From Henriciella sp. (lineage in GTDB: Bacteria > Pseudomonadota > Alphaproteobacteria > Caulobacterales > Hyphomonadaceae): 64,000 nt of DNA. The translations under genes were made by a program, and so were the position numbers. The notes beneath the pieces were generated by a model, which saw only the letters and a program-made list of their open reading frames with translations, had not been told where the DNA came from and did no database searches. Numbering within the stretch: position 1 is the stretch's first letter; the number at the start of each line of letters is the position of its first letter. Below, in pieces: positions 1 to 13,930 of this stretch. Where the stretch lies: positions 1 through 64,000 of the forward strand of contig JABSPZ010000007.1 in NCBI GenBank assembly GCA_013213785.1, in the 5' to 3' direction.

Positions 1-773
1 CCATCGCCCCCTCGTTTAGCCACTGAGTCCAGGCTTGAAGTGACCGCCTGCTTAATCTCTTCGCCTCCATAGCGCATTCTCGCGGACACATCATGGGCGA
101 CGGCGGATAACATGAAGTATTCACCGAGACCTGTGCAGGAAACGGTCACAGTTGCGTCCGCCCACGTGCCCAGCCCGATCAGCGGCGTGTCGCCGATCCG
201 GCCTTCACGTTTGCCGAACAAGCCGCCGGTCGATGTTGCGGCGGCGAGTCGACCTTCGCGGTCCATGGCCACAGCGCCGACCGTGCCATGTACAAGTTCA
301 TCCGTTGTCGTCTCGTCAGCTTCCACGCCAACTGGCAGGCGATACCAATTGTCGGGGTCTTCAACTTGATCCAGTCCGGCTTGTTTGCAGAAATGGTCCG
401 CGCCCGACCCTGAGAGCAAGACGTGAGGCGTATACTCCAGTACGGCCCGCGCCGCCTGGATTGGACTCTTGAGGTCGCGAACACCTGCGACCGCACCAGC
501 GCGGTTAGCGCTGCCATCCATGATCGCAGCGTCCATCTCGACATAGCCGGCGGCGTTAGGCGCTGAACCGCGTCCGGCCACATAGAGACCGCTCACTTCG
601 AGCGCACTCACCATAGCCTCAACCGAGTCGATTGCCGAAGCGCCGGCATCGAGCATGGCTTCGCCTTCCTTGATCAGGGTCGCAAGGTGAACCTCAACCT
701 CGCTATAGTCGCGGCCAGGTTTGGCGCCTGCACCGCCATGAATGGCCAGCGCATAATCAGGTCTGCTTGTCAT
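1..773 (-). CDS. Isoaspartyl peptidase / plant-type L-asparaginase (3' end outside window)
   Basis: N-terminal nucleophile hydrolase that splits beta-aspartyl dipeptides or asparagine in the cytoplasm; no signal peptide is visible. The protein opens with the family signature AIHGGAGAKPG at about residues 10-20. It contains HGTVGAVAMD, whose Thr (residue 164) is the expected autoprocessing site and nucleophile, followed by ATSTGG. The ATG overlaps the stop of the upstream cyanophycinase gene by four bases (ATGA), so the two are probably translationally coupled. About 257 codons are present and the frame is still open at base 1; the family is usually 300-330 residues, so only the C-terminus is missing. 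Next to a cyanophycinase, the natural substrate is most likely beta-Asp-Arg (inference). Confidence 0.9.
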   Translation of the reverse strand, partial: MTSRPDYALAIHGGAGAKPGRDYSEVEVHLATLIKEGEAMLDAGASAIDSVEAMVSALEVSGLYVAGRGSAPNAAGYVEMDAAIMDGSANRAGAVAGVRDLKSPIQAARAVLEYTPHVLLSGSGADHFCKQAGLDQVEDPDNWYRLPVGVEADETTTDELVHGTVGAVAMDREGRLAAATSTGGLFGKREGRIGDTPLIGLGTWADATVTVSCTGLGEYFMLSAVAHDVSARMRYGGEEIKQAVTSSLDSVAKRGGD

Positions 774-2029
774 TTGAGCGTCTCTATTGTGAGCTGAACA
801 GGGAGAATGTCGAAACGAATATTGGAGATGGCATAGCGCCCTTCCCCATCCGGGCCGCGGCCCCAATAACCGGCGGACTCTGGCAGCTGCGTAAACACGT
901 AGGCCACACCGCGGCCGCTGCCATCAAAGCTGACCCGCTCGATCGATTGGCTTTGCGCATTATCGGTCAGACCATCACCGATGACATTGGCAAGCGCCTG
1001 ACCCGGGATTGCCATGCCGCCACCGCCAGGCTGCGCATTTGAAAAATACTCCGCACCAACAGTTACCTGTTTCCAGTCAGCCGGGGCGAGACCGGGCAAG
1101 CTTGCATCAAACCGGTCCCCTTGCGCCATTAGGTGCAGAGTGAGCCCGGTAATCTGCGCAGCGCCGGATGCGGTTGTTTTCTGGCGCGCGCCACGGGCGT
1201 CAACGATCGTGACATAGCCATTGCCTTCAACGCCGACCCAGCCATCAGACTGTGCGATCAGCGCTGTATCTTCATCGACGCCAAACCCGACCCGGGCAGC
1301 CGGCTCGTCGAGGTCCATCAAGGCTACCACAAGGCGGCCAAGCCGCGCCCGCTCGCCGAAATGCTGATCGACCAGACCATAATGGAAGAAGCCAAGCCCA
1401 TGCCCCAGGCCAATCGGTTCGCCCGACTGTGATCCCGTGAGTGCTGTCAGCGAGTCCCCCTGTGTGATCATCGGGTCAGACATGATCGCCGCCCCAGCAC
1501 TGGTGCCACCAATCGGCATGCCGTCGGAATTGGATCGACGAATAGCCTGTAAGGCAGCTGTTGCGCCGCCGTCGCGATTTAGAAAGAGCTCCGTCGTGCG
1601 CGACTGATCTCCGCCCGTAAACCAGACCGCAGCCGCCTGTTCAAACAGCGCGGCGGTTTTCGGTCTATCAATGTTTGCGCGCCACTCAGATTCATCCACG
1701 TCAGGCGTTGAGCGGTCGTCCATGACGGCGAGCTTCGCCACTTCAATACGATCTGGAGCAACGCCGTAACGCTCTAGCGTCTCCCGCACCGACTGCGCAG
1801 ATTCAACGGGCGCGCCCGAAGCAGACGGCACAATCACAATTGACCCTTCGTCTTTGGCGGCGGTGATAAAGCTCGTCCAGACAGCCTCTGTGTCGGCGGA
1901 CAGTCCGCCACCAGCGATCACGAGAGCCCCTTTGGGCAGTGGCTCCATGGCACTGGAATCCGGAACGCCAGCGCAAGCGGCGATCACGAGACCAGCAGTC
2001 AAAGAGAGCAAGTTCGAATGTGTTTTCAT
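770..2029 (-). CDS. Cyanophycinase-type S51 serine peptidase, lipoprotein (CphE-like)
   Basis: Exopeptidase family that releases beta-Asp-Arg dipeptides from cyanophycin. Family landmarks are all present: FTGGDQ (137-142), GGTSAGA with nucleophile Ser177, DQHFGERARLGRL (221-233) and GVDEDTA (250-256). The N-terminus has a lipoprotein signal with lipobox IAAC (Cys19). The +2 residue is Ala, which favours the outer membrane. Length is 419 residues, against about 270 for the intracellular CphB enzyme; the secreted CphE type is of similar larger size, and the extra part is C-terminal. An in-frame upstream extension exists, but the ATG at 2029 shares one base with the preceding stop (TGATG) and immediately precedes the signal peptide, so this start is preferred. 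Substrate assignment is by family and context. Confidence 0.88.
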   Translation of the reverse strand: MKTHSNLLSLTAGLVIAACAGVPDSSAMEPLPKGALVIAGGGLSADTEAVWTSFITAAKDEGSIVIVPSASGAPVESAQSVRETLERYGVAPDRIEVAKLAVMDDRSTPDVDESEWRANIDRPKTAALFEQAAAVWFTGGDQSRTTELFLNRDGGATAALQAIRRSNSDGMPIGGTSAGAAIMSDPMITQGDSLTALTGSQSGEPIGLGHGLGFFHYGLVDQHFGERARLGRLVVALMDLDEPAARVGFGVDEDTALIAQSDGWVGVEGNGYVTIVDARGARQKTTASGAAQITGLTLHLMAQGDRFDASLPGLAPADWKQVTVGAEYFSNAQPGGGGMAIPGQALANVIGDGLTDNAQSQSIERVSFDGSGRGVAYVFTQLPESAGYWGRGPDGEGRYAISNIRFDILPVQLTIETLK

Positions 2030-3489
2030 CAACTGTATCCGATAGAAATAGCGATTAGAATGAAGACCGCGCCGAGCAGCATCAGGGCGACGAACGGCTT
2101 CCAGAAAAACTGGAACCATAAGCCCCACCCGACACGGGCAGCGGCGAGGCAGCCCATCAGAGCGGCAGACGATGGGACAATCAGGTTCATCAAACCATCA
2201 CCCAATTGGAAGGCGAGCACAGCGCTTTGTCGCTCCACCCCAATCAGATCAGACAAGGGTGCCATAAGCGGCATGGTCAGTGCCGCCTGGCCTGACCCTG
2301 AAACGACAAAAATATTGGTGATGGCTTGCAGGATAAACATGCCGAGGCCGGCTATATGCGCGGGCAATCCTTCGGTCAGCGTTGCCATGCTATAAAGCGC
2401 CGTGTTGAGCACGCTCGCATCGCCAGCCTTATCCCCGCCGAGCAGCAAGACGGTGCCTTTGGCAAACGCAATGATCATGGCCGCCGGGGCGAGTTGTACC
2501 GCACCGTCCCGAAACGCCTCGCCGCAGGCATTCAAGTCCATACCGTTCAACCGAAAAACGCGGGCGATGATCGCAGCCACCAGCCCCATGGCGAAGAACT
2601 GAGCCGCCAGCTCAGGGAAATAGTATTGGTGAACTGCGACGCCCCACGCGACCCAGGCGATCCCGATCAGGATGGTCAGAAGGATCAGAAGATGCCCGGA
2701 GCTAAACTTCTGAGATTCCAGCTCATCATGCTGAGCATCGTGCAGCCACTCGTCCGACGCGCGGGCGAGCGACGAGTCTGGTGCCAGCCGGACCCGCCGG
2801 GCATAGCGATACGTGTAGGCGGCTCCAATAGCGGTGAACACGGCCCACATGCTGACCCGCAAGCCTGCGCCGGACATGGTGTCGAGCCCGGAAATCCCTT
2901 GCGCAACAACGACCGAGAACGGGTTCATCCACGAGGTCGCAAACCCGACCTGCGTGGCCACGTACGTGACCAGCAGAACCGTCAGCGTGTCGTATCCTGC
3001 CCGGGCAAAAGCCGGGACCAGGATCATCACAAAGACGATCGCCTCTTCGCCCATACCAAAGATCGCGCCCCCTAATGAGAACAGGACGAACAGGATGGGC
3101 ATCATCACATCGCCTTGCGATCCAGGCTTAGCGATGGCTTGTTTCAACGCCGCTTCCATCGCCCCGGTGCGCATAATGATGCCGAACGCACCGCCGACGA
3201 TGAGCAAGAAGGCGAGGAGGCCGATGGTCGAGGAATAGCGATCCCCGGCAATAATGCCTTCGAACAGGAAGTTCAGAAACCCGACCTCTTCGCCGGTCCC
3301 GAACAGCGGTGCGGGTTGGCGCCCTACCCCTTCAAAGGCATCGATGCTGAATTCACCTGTCTCGCTGACGAAGCGCCCGGCAGGCACAAGCCAGGTCGCT
3401 GCCCAGGCGATCAGAGCAACAAAGAAGAGAATGATGAATGTGTCAGGCGCTTTGAAGCCGGTTGATGAAGGCGCAGATTTTTGAGTCAT
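2029..3489 (-). CDS. YfcC/DcuC-family inner-membrane transporter
   Basis: Polytopic membrane protein of the C4-dicarboxylate/YfcC ion transporter superfamily. The start matches the family pattern (FKAPDTFIILFFV, then WLVPAGRF), and about a dozen hydrophobic segments follow. Members carry amino acids, peptides or dicarboxylates; the exact substrate cannot be read from sequence. Placed between a TonB receptor and a cyanophycinase, import of beta-aspartyl dipeptides or released amino acids is the likely role (inference). The gene stops at TGATG, sharing a base with the cyanophycinase start. The ATG at 3489 is taken as the start; a GTG two codons upstream (3495) is possible. Confidence 0.82.
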   Translation of the reverse strand: MTQKSAPSSTGFKAPDTFIILFFVALIAWAATWLVPAGRFVSETGEFSIDAFEGVGRQPAPLFGTGEEVGFLNFLFEGIIAGDRYSSTIGLLAFLLIVGGAFGIIMRTGAMEAALKQAIAKPGSQGDVMMPILFVLFSLGGAIFGMGEEAIVFVMILVPAFARAGYDTLTVLLVTYVATQVGFATSWMNPFSVVVAQGISGLDTMSGAGLRVSMWAVFTAIGAAYTYRYARRVRLAPDSSLARASDEWLHDAQHDELESQKFSSGHLLILLTILIGIAWVAWGVAVHQYYFPELAAQFFAMGLVAAIIARVFRLNGMDLNACGEAFRDGAVQLAPAAMIIAFAKGTVLLLGGDKAGDASVLNTALYSMATLTEGLPAHIAGLGMFILQAITNIFVVSGSGQAALTMPLMAPLSDLIGVERQSAVLAFQLGDGLMNLIVPSSAALMGCLAAARVGWGLWFQFFWKPFVALMLLGAVFILIAISIGYS

Positions 3490-3559
3490 AACCACTCGTC
3501 ACTAGGAGAGCATGCAGGGGCGGACAAGTGACCGCCCGCCCCAGCTGCCAGGCCCCAGC

Positions 3560-6388
3560 CTAGAATGCGTGCCCGAAGCGCAGCGTTACGAAACGCCCCA
3601 AGCTGTTATGATTGAAGTGATCGACATTCGCGCCGGTGCCCAGCGCGAGTGGCGGGTCTTCATCGAACACATTGTCTACGGTGAGCTGGACAAAGCTGTT
3701 CTCGAGGAAGTCATATGAGACAGATGCATTGAAGACCGTCCAGGCTTCGACATCCTCGTACTCGGCATCGACCAGACCGCTATCAATCGCCGCTTGTAGG
3801 GTGCGTGAACTTGGATCGTCGCGATAGCTGGACGTGTAACGCGCCGCGACAGAGGTCCGCCAAGGGCCCTTGCTCCAGCGCAAGCGTGCAGTGGCGGTGA
3901 GCTCTGGATAGGTGAACTCACCAGCTTCCTCGACCACAGGAGAAGCTGGAGAGGCTTGTCGATCAAACTCGAACAGGTAACCCGCATCTGCCAGGATCGC
4001 GAGGTCGCCGTGCTTGCCGAGATCAACATACTTCGTCGCTGTCAGGTCGAGGCCGCTGGTTTCCTGGAAGCCAAGATTGGTCAGCGGAATGTGCGCATCG
4101 GTGACAAAGCCGCGATCGATTTCGAGGCCAGGCGTGCCGGTTGCCAGCGCGCCATTGGCGACATCAATGACCGTAAACTCGCCCGCCAAAGCGCGGCGGA
4201 TGAAATCATCTTCGTCAATCCCGACCAGGTCCTCATGGCGAATGTTCCAATAGTCGAGGCCGAGGCTGAAATCAGCATTCGGTTCGAACACCACACCAAG
4301 ACTCCAGCTTTCTGCATCCTCAGCCTGCAGATTCACATTGCCGAGTTCCTCAGACAGGAGCGACTCGCCGTCCGCGGTGGCGTCGCCATCACAAGCTTCT
4401 GGTGTGATTGAACAATCAACTGAGAAGCTGGTCAGACGCACCCCTGCCCCGGTCTGGGCCAGCGAAGGCGCACGGAAGCTGGTGCTCCAATTGCCGCGGA
4501 AGATCAACGACTCGATCGGTTGGTAGCGGAAGGCCACTTTCGGATTGAAATCGTCGCCAAAGTCCTCATCGCTATCGAAGCGACCGGCGAGCTGCACATC
4601 GAACTGGTCAGTGATCGGGACATAGAGTTCCGCAAATGCCGCCCATTGGGTCCGCTCTGCGTCGGCTGAAGTCGACGAGAAGCCGACGATTGGGTCCGGA
4701 TTTGCATTGGTGGCAACCGCATCGCCGGACGGGATGTCGGTCAGCTCTTCAGAGCGGAACTCGGCCCCGAACGCGCCTTTGACCTGATTGCCATTGAAGG
4801 TGAACAGGTCGCCGCTCGCCGAGACATCGAACTGGAACAGCGAAGACTCCCCATTGCGTTCAGCCTGGGTGACGATGGCGTCCAGTACCGCTTGGTCCTG
4901 GCTGGTCTGGCCACCAAATGGATTGTACCAGAGCGTGGTCAGCCCGCCATCTTCGCAAGCCTCACCACCAAGCGCATCCACGCGGCTGCCATCAGAACAG
5001 AGATTGCCTTGCAGCGCGTCTTCGAACTCAGCCGTACGATAAAGACCGGAAAGCCCGCTCTGCGTGGACTCGTTCTGGCCGTAGACGAAAGCTGCTTCAT
5101 AGGTCCAACCATTGTCGGCTTCGAAGGTCAGGCCAGATGTAAGCCGCAGCGTCTCGCTTTCGACAGTCACCGCCCGCGGCTCTGGAACTTTGCCCCAGGC
5201 AAAAATCGGGAAGCCGAAGAAGTCGCTATATACGGTGCCTGGATTGTCGAAGTTCGCTTCTTCCACAATGTCATCAATCAGCGCTTGCGAGAAAAACGGG
5301 TTCTCAGGATTGACCGGAATGCGCGAGAAGTTCGCTGGCGAAGAGGTGCCATTGCTTTCATTGGTCGACCAAAGGACATCATTGAACCAGGTCAGCTGAT
5401 CATTGATCTGGAACGTATACGCCCCCATCAAGCCGATCGATTCCAGCTCGTCATCTGTGGCGACAAAGGCATTGGTGTTGACTTCACAAAACTCACCAAA
5501 ATTGCCGAAACCGAAATCATCAGCGGCGCAACCACCATCAGCTGGTTCTTCGGTCTGATCAAAGAACATTAGAAACAGGTCATTGAAGCTCGGGAAGAAC
5601 CCTTGCTGACTCGGACGCACTGAGGTCGCAGTGAAGTCCCGGTCACGGTCGAACAGTGCCTCACGCTTGTAATAGTCAGCGACGAATAGAAGCGACTGGC
5701 GATTATCGGAATGGCCCCACACCGCGTTGAGATTGAGCTTTCCTTCGTCCGTCCCAGCCGTGGAGTTGCCATAGCTCGCTTGGACTTCGAAGCCATCGAA
5801 ATCATCGCGCAGAATATAGTTCACAACGCCAGCAACCGCGTCCGCGCCATACACCGCCGAGGCGCCGCTTGGCAGAACATCGACGCGTTCAATCGCGGCG
5901 AGTGGAATTGCATTGACGTCGATAAAATTCTCCTGGCCTTGCGCAAAAGATGTGATGCTCGCGCGGCGGCCATTAATCAGCGTCAGCGTCGAGCTGGCGC
6001 CAAGTCCTCGCAGAGAAACTGACGCCGCACCCGGCGGTGTATCGCCGGAAAGCGCGCCGGCGGTGGAGGTTGAGAATGTACCGCGGCCGCCACCCGTTTG
6101 CGGCAACTCCTTGAGCACTTCGATGAGCGAGCCCGCACCGGTTTCGTTGATCGCTTCGCGATCAATTGAAAGGGCTTGCACGGCACCATCTTCGGCGAGC
6201 CCGCGGATACGCGAACCGGTCGTGACAACCGTTCCGAGCGTCATTCCAGCATCGGTTTTCGTTTCTGTGGTGGTTTCGATTGTGTCGTCCACTGGCGCAT
6301 CCTGTGCGTTGGCCAGCGGGGTCGCCATAAGCGCGAGTCCAAGCGGCAACGCTGACGCGCGCGCGAGTTTAAGTGTCTTGAATGTCAT
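3560..6388 (-). CDS. TonB-dependent receptor
   Basis: Outer-membrane energy-coupled importer of 942 residues. A signal peptide ends near ANAQD (about residue 29). The plug domain runs from about 50 to 190 and includes VVTTGSRIRG and the closing signature SGASAVYGADAVAGVVNYIL. The rest is beta-barrel and ends in an aromatic-rich strand (TLRFGHAF). Several cysteine pairs lie in predicted loops (for example CAADDF...FCEV and DCSITPEAC), which could lock extracellular loops. The transporter gene begins 71 bases downstream on the same strand, so this is probably the first gene of the cyanophycinase/isoaspartyl peptidase operon. Substrate is inferred from that context only. Confidence 0.92.
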   Translation of the reverse strand: MTFKTLKLARASALPLGLALMATPLANAQDAPVDDTIETTTETKTDAGMTLGTVVTTGSRIRGLAEDGAVQALSIDREAINETGAGSLIEVLKELPQTGGGRGTFSTSTAGALSGDTPPGAASVSLRGLGASSTLTLINGRRASITSFAQGQENFIDVNAIPLAAIERVDVLPSGASAVYGADAVAGVVNYILRDDFDGFEVQASYGNSTAGTDEGKLNLNAVWGHSDNRQSLLFVADYYKREALFDRDRDFTATSVRPSQQGFFPSFNDLFLMFFDQTEEPADGGCAADDFGFGNFGEFCEVNTNAFVATDDELESIGLMGAYTFQINDQLTWFNDVLWSTNESNGTSSPANFSRIPVNPENPFFSQALIDDIVEEANFDNPGTVYSDFFGFPIFAWGKVPEPRAVTVESETLRLTSGLTFEADNGWTYEAAFVYGQNESTQSGLSGLYRTAEFEDALQGNLCSDGSRVDALGGEACEDGGLTTLWYNPFGGQTSQDQAVLDAIVTQAERNGESSLFQFDVSASGDLFTFNGNQVKGAFGAEFRSEELTDIPSGDAVATNANPDPIVGFSSTSADAERTQWAAFAELYVPITDQFDVQLAGRFDSDEDFGDDFNPKVAFRYQPIESLIFRGNWSTSFRAPSLAQTGAGVRLTSFSVDCSITPEACDGDATADGESLLSEELGNVNLQAEDAESWSLGVVFEPNADFSLGLDYWNIRHEDLVGIDEDDFIRRALAGEFTVIDVANGALATGTPGLEIDRGFVTDAHIPLTNLGFQETSGLDLTATKYVDLGKHGDLAILADAGYLFEFDRQASPASPVVEEAGEFTYPELTATARLRWSKGPWRTSVAARYTSSYRDDPSSRTLQAAIDSGLVDAEYEDVEAWTVFNASVSYDFLENSFVQLTVDNVFDEDPPLALGTGANVDHFNHNSLGRFVTLRFGHAF

Positions 6389-6759: not shown

Positions 6760-7134
6760 TTAAGCATCATCTGCAAAATTGCTGGGCAGCGATTCGCTCC
6801 ATTTACGAAGCTCATCGAGAAAACCGAGCGCGCTCTCACCGAACGGAGTGATAGAGTAATGAACGGAGACTGGCGACGTATCGACAACTTGGCGGTGAAC
6901 AAGCCCCTGTTTTTCGAGTTGGCGCAATCGTTCGGTTATCATTTTCTTGCTGGCGCCGCCAACCAGACGCGCAAGATCGTTGAATCGCACTGGCTCGTCC
7001 TGGAGATGCCACAGAATCGATCCAGTCCATTTGCCGCCAACGATCCGCATGCCGCGCTCTATGGCGCACGGTTCACTGCAAGGGTCTTCAGCCATGCGTC
7101 TGCCTTGCTCATCTTGGTGTATTTTTGCGCGCAT
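6760..7134 (-). CDS. HxlR-family winged-helix transcriptional regulator
   Basis: Protein of 124 residues with the HxlR pattern: Cys-rich N-terminus (DPCSEPCAIERGMRIVGGKW), then RFNDLARLVGGASKKMITERLRQLE as the recognition part, then YSITPFGESA. The N-terminal cysteines are typical of HxlR proteins that sense electrophiles or quinones. The start at 7134 has GGGAG seven bases upstream. It is transcribed away from a quinone reductase gene that starts at 7249, so it probably controls that gene and itself from the 114-base region between them (inference). Confidence 0.88.
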   Translation of the reverse strand: MRAKIHQDEQGRRMAEDPCSEPCAIERGMRIVGGKWTGSILWHLQDEPVRFNDLARLVGGASKKMITERLRQLEKQGLVHRQVVDTSPVSVHYSITPFGESALGFLDELRKWSESLPSNFADDA

Positions 7135-12538: not shown

Positions 12539-13930
12539 TTAGAATTCGGCCTTAAGTGTCACGCCGTAAGTTCTTGGTGGAGACAAAAAAGCTGCGATCG
12601 CGCTTCCATTGCTTCCTTGCAATGGCGTATCGAACGCAACTTGTGCGTAGTCTTCATCGGTAAGATTTTGTGCCCAAAGCTCAACTGAGAAGGGCGAGTC
12701 ATCGTTGTAAATGGCTACCCGTCCGTTCAACAATACCAGTTCGTCGACATCTTTCTGGGGATCAAGATTCGATCCGGTGTTGTAGCGCGACGTATAGCGA
12801 CCTGAAAGATTCCAACGGGCGCTCCAGTCTGCGATGAAGTCGGCATCGATTGTCGCCGCAAGCGTGCCTGTCCAACGCGGCGCAAATCCTAGAGCTCCAC
12901 CGGATAGACGAGAAGACAGGCCGAGGGCAGCCGCGTCAAACTCGCCATACTCGGTTTCTGCAAATGTGATTCCACCTTGAAGTGTTAGATACTCTGCAGC
13001 CTCTGGTAGATACCTGAAGTCAACGTCAACCCCTTGAGATTTCAGTTCCGGAATAGATTCAACCACAAAAACCGTGCCGAGGAATGTATTCAGTTGGAAG
13101 TCGGCATAGTCTTGGTAAAATGCTGCGCCGTTAATGAAGAGAGAGCCGGCAGAATTATTCCATTTTGCTCCCAGCTCATAGGCGTCCACTGTTTCCGCAT
13201 CAAAGCTCGTGTCTGCAATCGGCGTAACTCCCGAAGCAGCGCGATCGAGATTGAAACCTCCGGCTTTATAGCCTCGCGCATATGAAGCATAGGTGAGGAG
13301 GTTCTCGTTGGGACGATAGCTCAGCTTGAATGTGCCCGAAACTTCTTCGTCGGTTCGGGACTGTTCTGTCGTTAATCCATCAAACAGATCATTTTGCCAA
13401 GACAGGCAAGAAAAGCCAATCAGCGAAGTCGGGAATCCCGGCGTTGTCACCGCGGTGGTGCAAGATCCAGCATTGTTCGAGAAACTGGATGAAAGATCTT
13501 TTTCGTCAGAAGTGAACCGAACACCAATGGTGGCGTCAACGACGTCATTCAACTGAATTGTGTTATGAGTAAACACGGCGAACGTGGTGGCTTCTTGTTG
13601 GTAAAGATCGTCATTCGCCGCTGCGCCAGGAGTCCAGAATTGCCCCGCGAAAGAGGTGAACGCACCACCAAACAAAGTATTCCAGTAGGCGAAATAGTCG
13701 TTGCCATATCTGAGGCGGCTTTCGCGTTCGAGGTCTTCAGTTGCGGCGTACAAACCGACTAACCAGTCGAGATTGTCGGTTTGACCACTCAGCTTTGGGT
13801 GCGTAACAACAAGGTTGGAATTCGGAAGGTTAGAGACACGGAAGGCTTCGCCTGCTGACAGAAACTGGCATGCACTCATTGTATTGCCGTCACAGGATGT
13901 GTTCGGATCGGCGATACAGCCCGCCCCCTC
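12539..13930 (-). pseudogene. 5'-truncated TonB-dependent receptor (barrel only)
   Basis: Beta-barrel portion of a TonB-dependent receptor, about 460 codons, against 700-900 for a whole receptor. Barrel features include NLLTYASYARGYKAGGFNLD, ELGAKWN and LWAQNLTDEDYAQ, and it ends TYGVTLKAEF, a normal last strand. Receptor-like sequence continues upstream of the first ATG (GCIADPNTSCDGNT) to an in-frame TAA at 13931-13933. No signal peptide, TonB box or plug is encoded, and a divergent VOC gene starts 30 bases away. So the first half was lost by deletion or rearrangement. A product could not insert or transport normally. Confidence 0.82.

Follow-up and report, generated by a model that had tools for sequence, protein, structure and literature searches.

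A probable cyanophycin-scavenging locus in Henriciella pairs a TonB-dependent receptor with a YfcC-family transporter

Here, we describe a four-gene locus of Henriciella sp. (assembly GCA_013213785.1, contig JABSPZ010000007.1) which we propose serves in the use of cyanophycin, the nitrogen-storage polymer of cyanobacteria. The window, meaning the whole stretch of DNA that was analysed, consists of the first 64,000 bases of the contig, and the genome amounts to 3.36 Mb in 50 contigs. The genes and the features between them are as follows:

3560..6388, minus strand: TonB-dependent receptor (TBDT), 942 residues, with Plug and barrel Pfam domains
3490..3559, minus strand: intergenic stretch between receptor and transporter, with a GC-rich hairpin lacking a T-run
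2029..3489, minus strand: inner-membrane transporter of the YfcC/DcuC family, 486 residues (NF008611, 604.2 bits; PF03606, 379 bits)
2027..2031, minus strand: TGATG, in which the stop codon of the transporter overlaps the start codon of the cyanophycinase
770..2029, minus strand: cyanophycinase (S51, CphE-like), 419 residues (TIGR02069, 182.8 bits), Ser177/His223/Glu253
770..773, minus strand: ATGA, in which the cyanophycinase stop codon overlaps the start codon of the peptidase
3..773, minus strand: isoaspartyl peptidase of the N-terminal nucleophile (Ntn) type, Asparaginase_2 family (PF01112, 238 bits), Thr164

A first-pass annotation had read these minus-strand genes as receptor, YfcC-type transporter, cyanophycinase and isoaspartyl peptidase, and all four were found with matching family scores. 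Ser177 lies, as it claimed, in GGTSAGA (codon 1501-1499) and Thr164 in GTVGAV (codon 284-282), and the two junctions taken as a sign of translational coupling, TGATG (2031-2027) and ATGA (773-770), are where it had placed them. Its description of the locus as complete has to be withdrawn: base 1 of the window is base 1 of the contig, so the peptidase gene is missing its 3' end and the protein its C-terminal end, with 257 residues encoded up to the contig end and about 37 missing by comparison with complete relatives (292-300 residues).

The cyanophycinase exceeds the cut-off of TIGR02069 (126.6 bits). Aligned to Synechocystis CphB (3en0), it has all of the catalytic triad Ser132/His174/Glu201, where the numbers of His174 and Glu201 are those we presume for CphB and are consistent with the alignment. 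The CphB pocket residues Gln101, Asp172, Gln173, Arg178, Arg180 and Arg183 (listed in PMC3235067) are likewise all present. These nine positions are all kept in 24 of the 27 aligned homologues (window included), and the other three differ only by R178K. A predicted model of the enzyme (predicted local distance difference test score, pLDDT, 81) matches 3en0 with Z 30.0 and a root-mean-square deviation of 2.2 over 259 aligned residues; the structural matches listed for it concern the S51 domain, and hardly residues ~300-400. The last ~110 residues (window 770-1130, minus strand) are conserved and strand-rich, and lie outside the Pfam S51 match.

The pocket bears on an alternative in which the locus would scavenge beta-aspartyl (isoaspartyl) peptides in general, whether derived from damaged proteins or otherwise beta-linked, with cyanophycin as one substrate or none. 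Isoaspartyl dipeptidases of cyanophycin clusters are described as promiscuous (PMC10206079), and 7uqv, deposited as a 'pseudo-CphB', has the same nine positions and ties for best match, which demonstrates that the residues can persist and that they are by themselves no proof of activity. We nevertheless regard this alternative as unlikely, given that the enzyme scores above the TIGR02069 cut-off and keeps the CphB pocket, unlike 6nqc, a deposited cyanophycinase-like exopeptidase which in the same alignment retains Ser, His and Glu and does not share the Gln, Asp and Arg residues of the pocket.

Signal peptides, lipoboxes and the TonB box were judged by eye throughout, and not by a prediction program. 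At its N-terminus the cyanophycinase has a hydrophobic signal followed by an IAAC lipobox with Cys19, and the window enzyme is thus a probable lipoprotein, as the first-pass annotation had it. As a description of the family, that label does not extend: related cyanophycinases are a mix of lipobox and ordinary-looking signals, several relatives having the latter, so the common trait is export rather than lipidation. Family, fold and export signal are established in silico, and the enzyme would be expected to hydrolyse its substrate to beta-Asp-Arg.

The peptidase has 2zak as its best PDB match, and Thr164, which follows HG, aligns with residue 1 of the beta chain of solved peptidases. The truncated gene does not reach the cut-off of the E. 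coli IaaA equivalog NF007589 (176.8 vs 567 bits), and we therefore file the protein in the wider Ntn family and not as IaaA. It starts without a signal peptide, as do its counterparts, in 15 of the 15 loci (presented below) that have the peptidase; while its family is clear, it would only by prediction split beta-Asp-Arg in the cytoplasm. Elsewhere in the genome there is a second Asparaginase_2 gene and a gene for AstA (395.8 bits), and no match to IadA was found in the genome. Nor did the genome give any cyanophycin synthetase over the family cut-off (best match 54.6 vs 850 bits), from which it follows that any cyanophycin should be external.

YfcC, the only inner-membrane carrier within the four-gene unit, exceeds its NF008611 cut-off of 500 bits, a family which NCBIfam names a putative basic amino acid antiporter. 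A low-confidence model (pLDDT 60) matches LaINDY with Z 20.2 over 398 residues and, by Foldseek, has the AbgT-family YdaH on top, so that the protein is probably, by its predicted fold, a secondary transporter of the elevator type found in the ion transporter superfamily. The receptor begins with a signal peptide and the TonB-box-like GTVVTTGSRI.

Among 299 genomes of the window's order (searched with expectation values, E, of up to 1e-30 for the cyanophycinase, 1e-120 for the receptor and 1e-60 for YfcC), matches numbered 19 for the cyanophycinase, 12 for the receptor and 18 for YfcC. Receptor orthologues in the 11 other genomes are 55-73% identical. In 12 of the 18, YfcC is at least 53% identical, and these are the identical 12 genomes that have the receptor; the remaining YfcC matches are 33-35% identical. 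We compared the stretches around the cyanophycinase in all 18 other genomes that encode one: receptor, YfcC and cyanophycinase lie in that order on one strand in every one of the 11 other receptor-bearing genomes (in L027 the receptor is split across two contigs; L numbers are our designations of loci), and the peptidase follows in 10 of them. Hence in all 12 receptor-bearing genomes, window included, the cyanophycinase adjoins the receptor-YfcC pair. At L026 (15979-18483), after a reverse gene, we observed an 834-residue protein weakly similar, below cut-off, to the lasso peptide isopeptidase Atxe2 and to Dpp5. At L024 (6237-13156), a 53% identical cyanophycinase with an export-like start stands alone between genes for S-adenosylmethionine synthetase and rimM.

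Cyanophycin storage clusters consist of CphA1, a cyanophycinase and an aspartoacylase-family dipeptide hydrolase, the last of which we take to be the protein called CphZ. The window's locus resembles them in cyanophycinase chemistry and differs in that its genome has no synthetase over cut-off. Storage-type clusters are found in the same order at L039 (8009-12966) and L040 (6739-11797), where cyanophycinases of 734-736 residues, fused from tandem S51 domains, lie beside a cyanophycin synthetase family gene (1061.7 bits in L039, with L040 grouped by its similarity to L039), and neither has a receptor or YfcC of the window's kind; both, like L024, belong to the seven cyanophycinase genomes of the order that are without the pair. 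Their aspartoacylase-family neighbour matches 8ein (checked for L039, 356 bits).

A scan of named genome contigs yielded nine loci, five of them with all four genes: L041 from a Henriciella metagenome-assembled genome (MAG), L042 and L045 from Qipengyuania, L043 from Aurantiacibacter and L044 from a Croceicoccus MAG. According to NCBI taxonomy, Qipengyuania and Croceicoccus belong to the Sphingomonadales and Henriciella to the Hyphomonadales. In total, counting the window and dropping L041 (a locus already present in the order sample), the order receptor-YfcC-cyanophycinase recurs in 16 distinct loci from two orders, 15 of them with the peptidase, which excludes a chance arrangement. A lack of the receptor and transporter beside the cyanophycinase in relatives had been set beforehand as what would speak against the proposal, and those 16 loci show the opposite. 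In 10 of the 16, window included, an ATG is present at the same -1 offset where transporter and cyanophycinase meet. Gene families flanking the module are almost all unshared between loci, and this sets its limits at the four families. Tree distances are correlated between all four genes, with r of 0.67-0.94 (p 0.001 by permutation in every one of the six pairs, 14-15 taxa), which fits shared inheritance or joint transfer, without separating them.

The receptor is missing in at least 20 sampled congeners. A class sample of 385 genomes (few per genus, 277 genera) gave only the window's own genome and missed the Sphingomonadales loci found among the named contigs. Matches in plasmid records number 26, all below 60% identity. 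The GC content of the locus is 58.9%, compared with a mean of 55.3% (standard deviation 1.8, maximum 57.7%) in the rest of the window, taken in stretches as long as the locus. Together with the absence from congeners this fits horizontal gain, without being proof of it.

Outside the class, a distant receptor and a related YfcC are found with a different cytosolic enzyme. Of 398 genomes sampled from the phylum (receptor E up to 1e-100), eight had a receptor match, namely the window's own and seven from outside the class. We examined nine places in these seven genomes. Seven of the nine have the receptor, a YfcC 45-48% identical to that of the window and an open reading frame (ORF) of 375-393 residues on one strand, with the cyanophycinase homologue divergent. 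All seven ORFs are IadA (TIGR01975, 455-498 bits vs a cut-off of 331.25), matching the model from residue 1-5. IadA, a metal-dependent amidohydrolase, has no relationship to the Ntn peptidase. Like the latter, it has isoaspartyl dipeptidase activity (PMC10206079). In the cyanophycinase homologues of these seven loci, eight of the nine CphB positions are unchanged and Gln173 is replaced by Thr, a replacement also reported for CphEal, a proven extracellular enzyme (PMC3235067).

A search for YfcC in 299 phylum genomes found eight places outside the window's genome: four of the known IadA loci, one further locus (L156) and three, 44-46% identical, without a cyanophycinase, of which two adjoin an AstE/AspA-family enzyme and one PanF. 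L156 (7659-15180) encodes in one direction a different large protein (1022 residues, with a CarboxypepD_reg domain), a cyanophycinase homologue (by tblastn; Pfam S51 23.2 vs a cut-off of 23.9), YfcC and an IadA homologue (52% identical, tblastn); the divergent arrangement occurs in that genome as well. A tree of the YfcC proteins places those of the window type in a single clade (support 0.94).

The two AstE/AspA neighbours are in L153 (8875-11504) and L154 (7850-10536). For the L154 enzyme, the best solved match is 3na6 (aspartoacylase-family), followed by 6twm (N-acetyl-diaminobutyrate deacetylase), with a resemblance below cut-off. We considered both as candidates for CphZ and rejected them, as they are only 22-31% identical to the storage-cluster proteins; they are therefore not counted as a third beta-Asp-Arg hydrolase. 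These neighbours suggest that the wider YfcC clade may carry amide-linked amino acid compounds.

What, then, might YfcC carry? With an exported cyanophycinase and a peptidase that is not exported, a beta-aspartyl dipeptide should have to cross the inner membrane. A single lineage of YfcC goes together with either of two beta-aspartyl dipeptidases that are unrelated to each other, and this pairing, best explained if YfcC imports the substrate which both enzymes share, is the strongest evidence for a role in the import of beta-Asp-Arg. A different option is that YfcC imports free arginine or exchanges arginine for ornithine, with the dipeptide being split outside the inner membrane or carried by another protein. 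The NCBIfam family name agrees with this option, as does the description of a symbiont YfcC as an arginine/ornithine antiporter (PMC9636832). It is, in our judgement, improbable: the peptidase lacks a signal peptide in 15 loci, so that the release of arginine would be confined to the cell interior, and the match of IadA to its model from residue 1-5 leaves no space for one. We favour, with fair though not high confidence, the view that this YfcC clade is a dedicated elevator-type importer of beta-aspartyl dipeptides, fixed to one lineage of cyanophycin or cyanophycin-oligomer receptor, and that the transport pair was kept while the enzyme of the cytosol was swapped between unrelated families (the Ntn peptidase being that of Alphaproteobacteria, and IadA that of the loci outside the class).

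Taking the four genes together, we think it highly likely, as far as sequence can tell, that they form an operon for the scavenging of external cyanophycin or its close relatives (beta-Asp-Arg/Lys polymers and oligomers). First, the TonB-dependent receptor would carry its ligand, be it soluble cyanophycin, oligomers or dipeptides already released, through the outer membrane. Second, the exported cyanophycinase, anchored to the membrane in the window's strain, would cut the aspartate backbone to beta-Asp-Arg. Third, YfcC would import the dipeptide across the inner membrane, as its fixed partnership with two unrelated dipeptidases suggests. Fourth, the cytoplasmic Ntn peptidase would split it to aspartate and arginine, and the released arginine could enter the AstA route. 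This is the sequence of uptake, depolymerisation, import and cytosolic hydrolysis that the first-pass annotation had put forward, and both the gene-order comparison and the seven IadA loci lend it support.

The first step admits of a variant in which nothing but the small dipeptide, or else an unrelated co-nutrient (a metal chelate, for instance), passes through the receptor, with the lipoprotein cutting the polymer at the surface. This possibility, which is compatible with the scavenging of cyanophycin, is one that we hold tentatively and as the less probable course. The probable lipoprotein nature of the window's cyanophycinase speaks for it, as do the NCBIfam matches of the receptor, which concern models for receptors of siderophores, heme and vitamins, all below cut-offs; two of the nine distant receptor copies (L140 and L144, second copies in their genomes) have neither YfcC nor cyanophycinase beside them. 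On the other side stands the adjacency of cyanophycinase and receptor in 12 of 12 order genomes.

Several observations, in addition to the 'pseudo-CphB' residues, count against an operon dedicated to cyanophycin. Seven of the 19 cyanophycinase genomes of the order are without a receptor and YfcC of this kind, as are four of the nine named loci (L046 and L047 in Alkalimonas, L048 and L049 in Parasphingopyxis), and L026 has the module without the peptidase. Of the distant cyanophycinase homologues three were scanned, and all three score under the TIGR02069 cut-off (98-110 vs 126.6 bits). The three YfcC proteins without a cyanophycinase, beside AstE/AspA-family enzymes or PanF, form a clade of their own (0.999) that is sister to six proteins from IadA loci. 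Finally, an acidic receptor was considered as a sign of an arginine-rich ligand and rejected, since the window's receptor is the third most acidic of 30 in the genome (30 loci measured of 35 listed matches) and inside their range; the net charge of its orthologues runs from -1 to -12 per 100 residues.

The concept of such a locus is already known. A cyanophycin utilization locus with a transporter, in a scavenging genome, has been published (Ben Hania et al. 2017, as cited in PMC10206079 and PMC6243061), and in Citromicrobium sp. JLT1363 a TBDT gene lies close to a cyanophycinase, with cyanophycin named among the likely TBDT substrates (Tang et al. 2012; PMC3400609). In common with the former, the window has a cyanophycinase, an isoaspartyl dipeptidase and a transporter clustered and no CphA1 over cut-off, and by its predicted genes it would be a cyanophycin utilization locus. 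It differs, insofar as the citing papers describe the published locus, in that the latter has iadA and comes from a Bacteroidetes strain, whereas in the window, which is alphaproteobacterial, the peptidase is of the Ntn type and is accompanied by the fixed pair of TonB receptor and YfcC. The likeness to Citromicrobium is that a TonB-dependent receptor adjoins a cyanophycinase with cyanophycin as proposed substrate, a likeness of gene position, and the passages of that account concerned with these genes name no inner-membrane importer or peptidase (PMC3400609). CphEal, the Pseudomonas CphE, is similar to the window enzyme in its 1260 bp gene, Sec-type signal, GXSXG/His/Glu triad and pocket Gln, Asp and three Arg residues; it differs in having Thr at the position of Gln173 (PMC3235067), a Gln present in both CphB and the window enzyme, whereas the seven distant loci share the Thr. 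The window enzyme differs further by its lipobox.

In the literature searched, which was mostly open-access so that an earlier assignment is possible, no beta-Asp-Arg importer is named, and the uptake of cyanophycin by bacteria other than cyanobacteria is not assigned to particular proteins. The novelty that the first-pass annotation had seen in both receptor and importer thus narrows: the receptor beside a cyanophycinase had been proposed for cyanophycin in 2012 (PMC3400609) and a locus with a transporter is on record (PMC10206079), while the assignment of the importer, the fixed receptor-YfcC pair and the enzyme swap are new. The pair provides concrete candidates for the passage of cyanophycin through both membranes and a possible marker for cyanophycin eaters in metagenomes, and the YfcC family gains a testable function beyond its NCBIfam name.

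As for regulation, a consensus scan for promoters and terminators at the locus gave none beyond chance. An HxlR regulator (6760-7134) was considered as part of the locus and rejected, having no match in the 27 loci searched (E 1e-8). The gap between receptor and YfcC folds better than shuffled sequence in 16 of 16 loci (z below -1.64, mean -3.5). We had considered the hairpin as a special regulatory element. It is an ordinary one, because 21 of the 29 other TonB receptor genes of the genome (L097-L126) are also followed, no more than 75 bases past the stop codon, by a hairpin whose stability exceeds that of shuffled sequence; in 15 of the 21 a run of five T is absent. A further ORF with TonB-receptor similarity is present in the window (12539-13879, minus strand, 446 residues), covering barrel positions 120-436 only and with no room in the open frame for a plug, which suggests a receptor gene that is truncated or broken.

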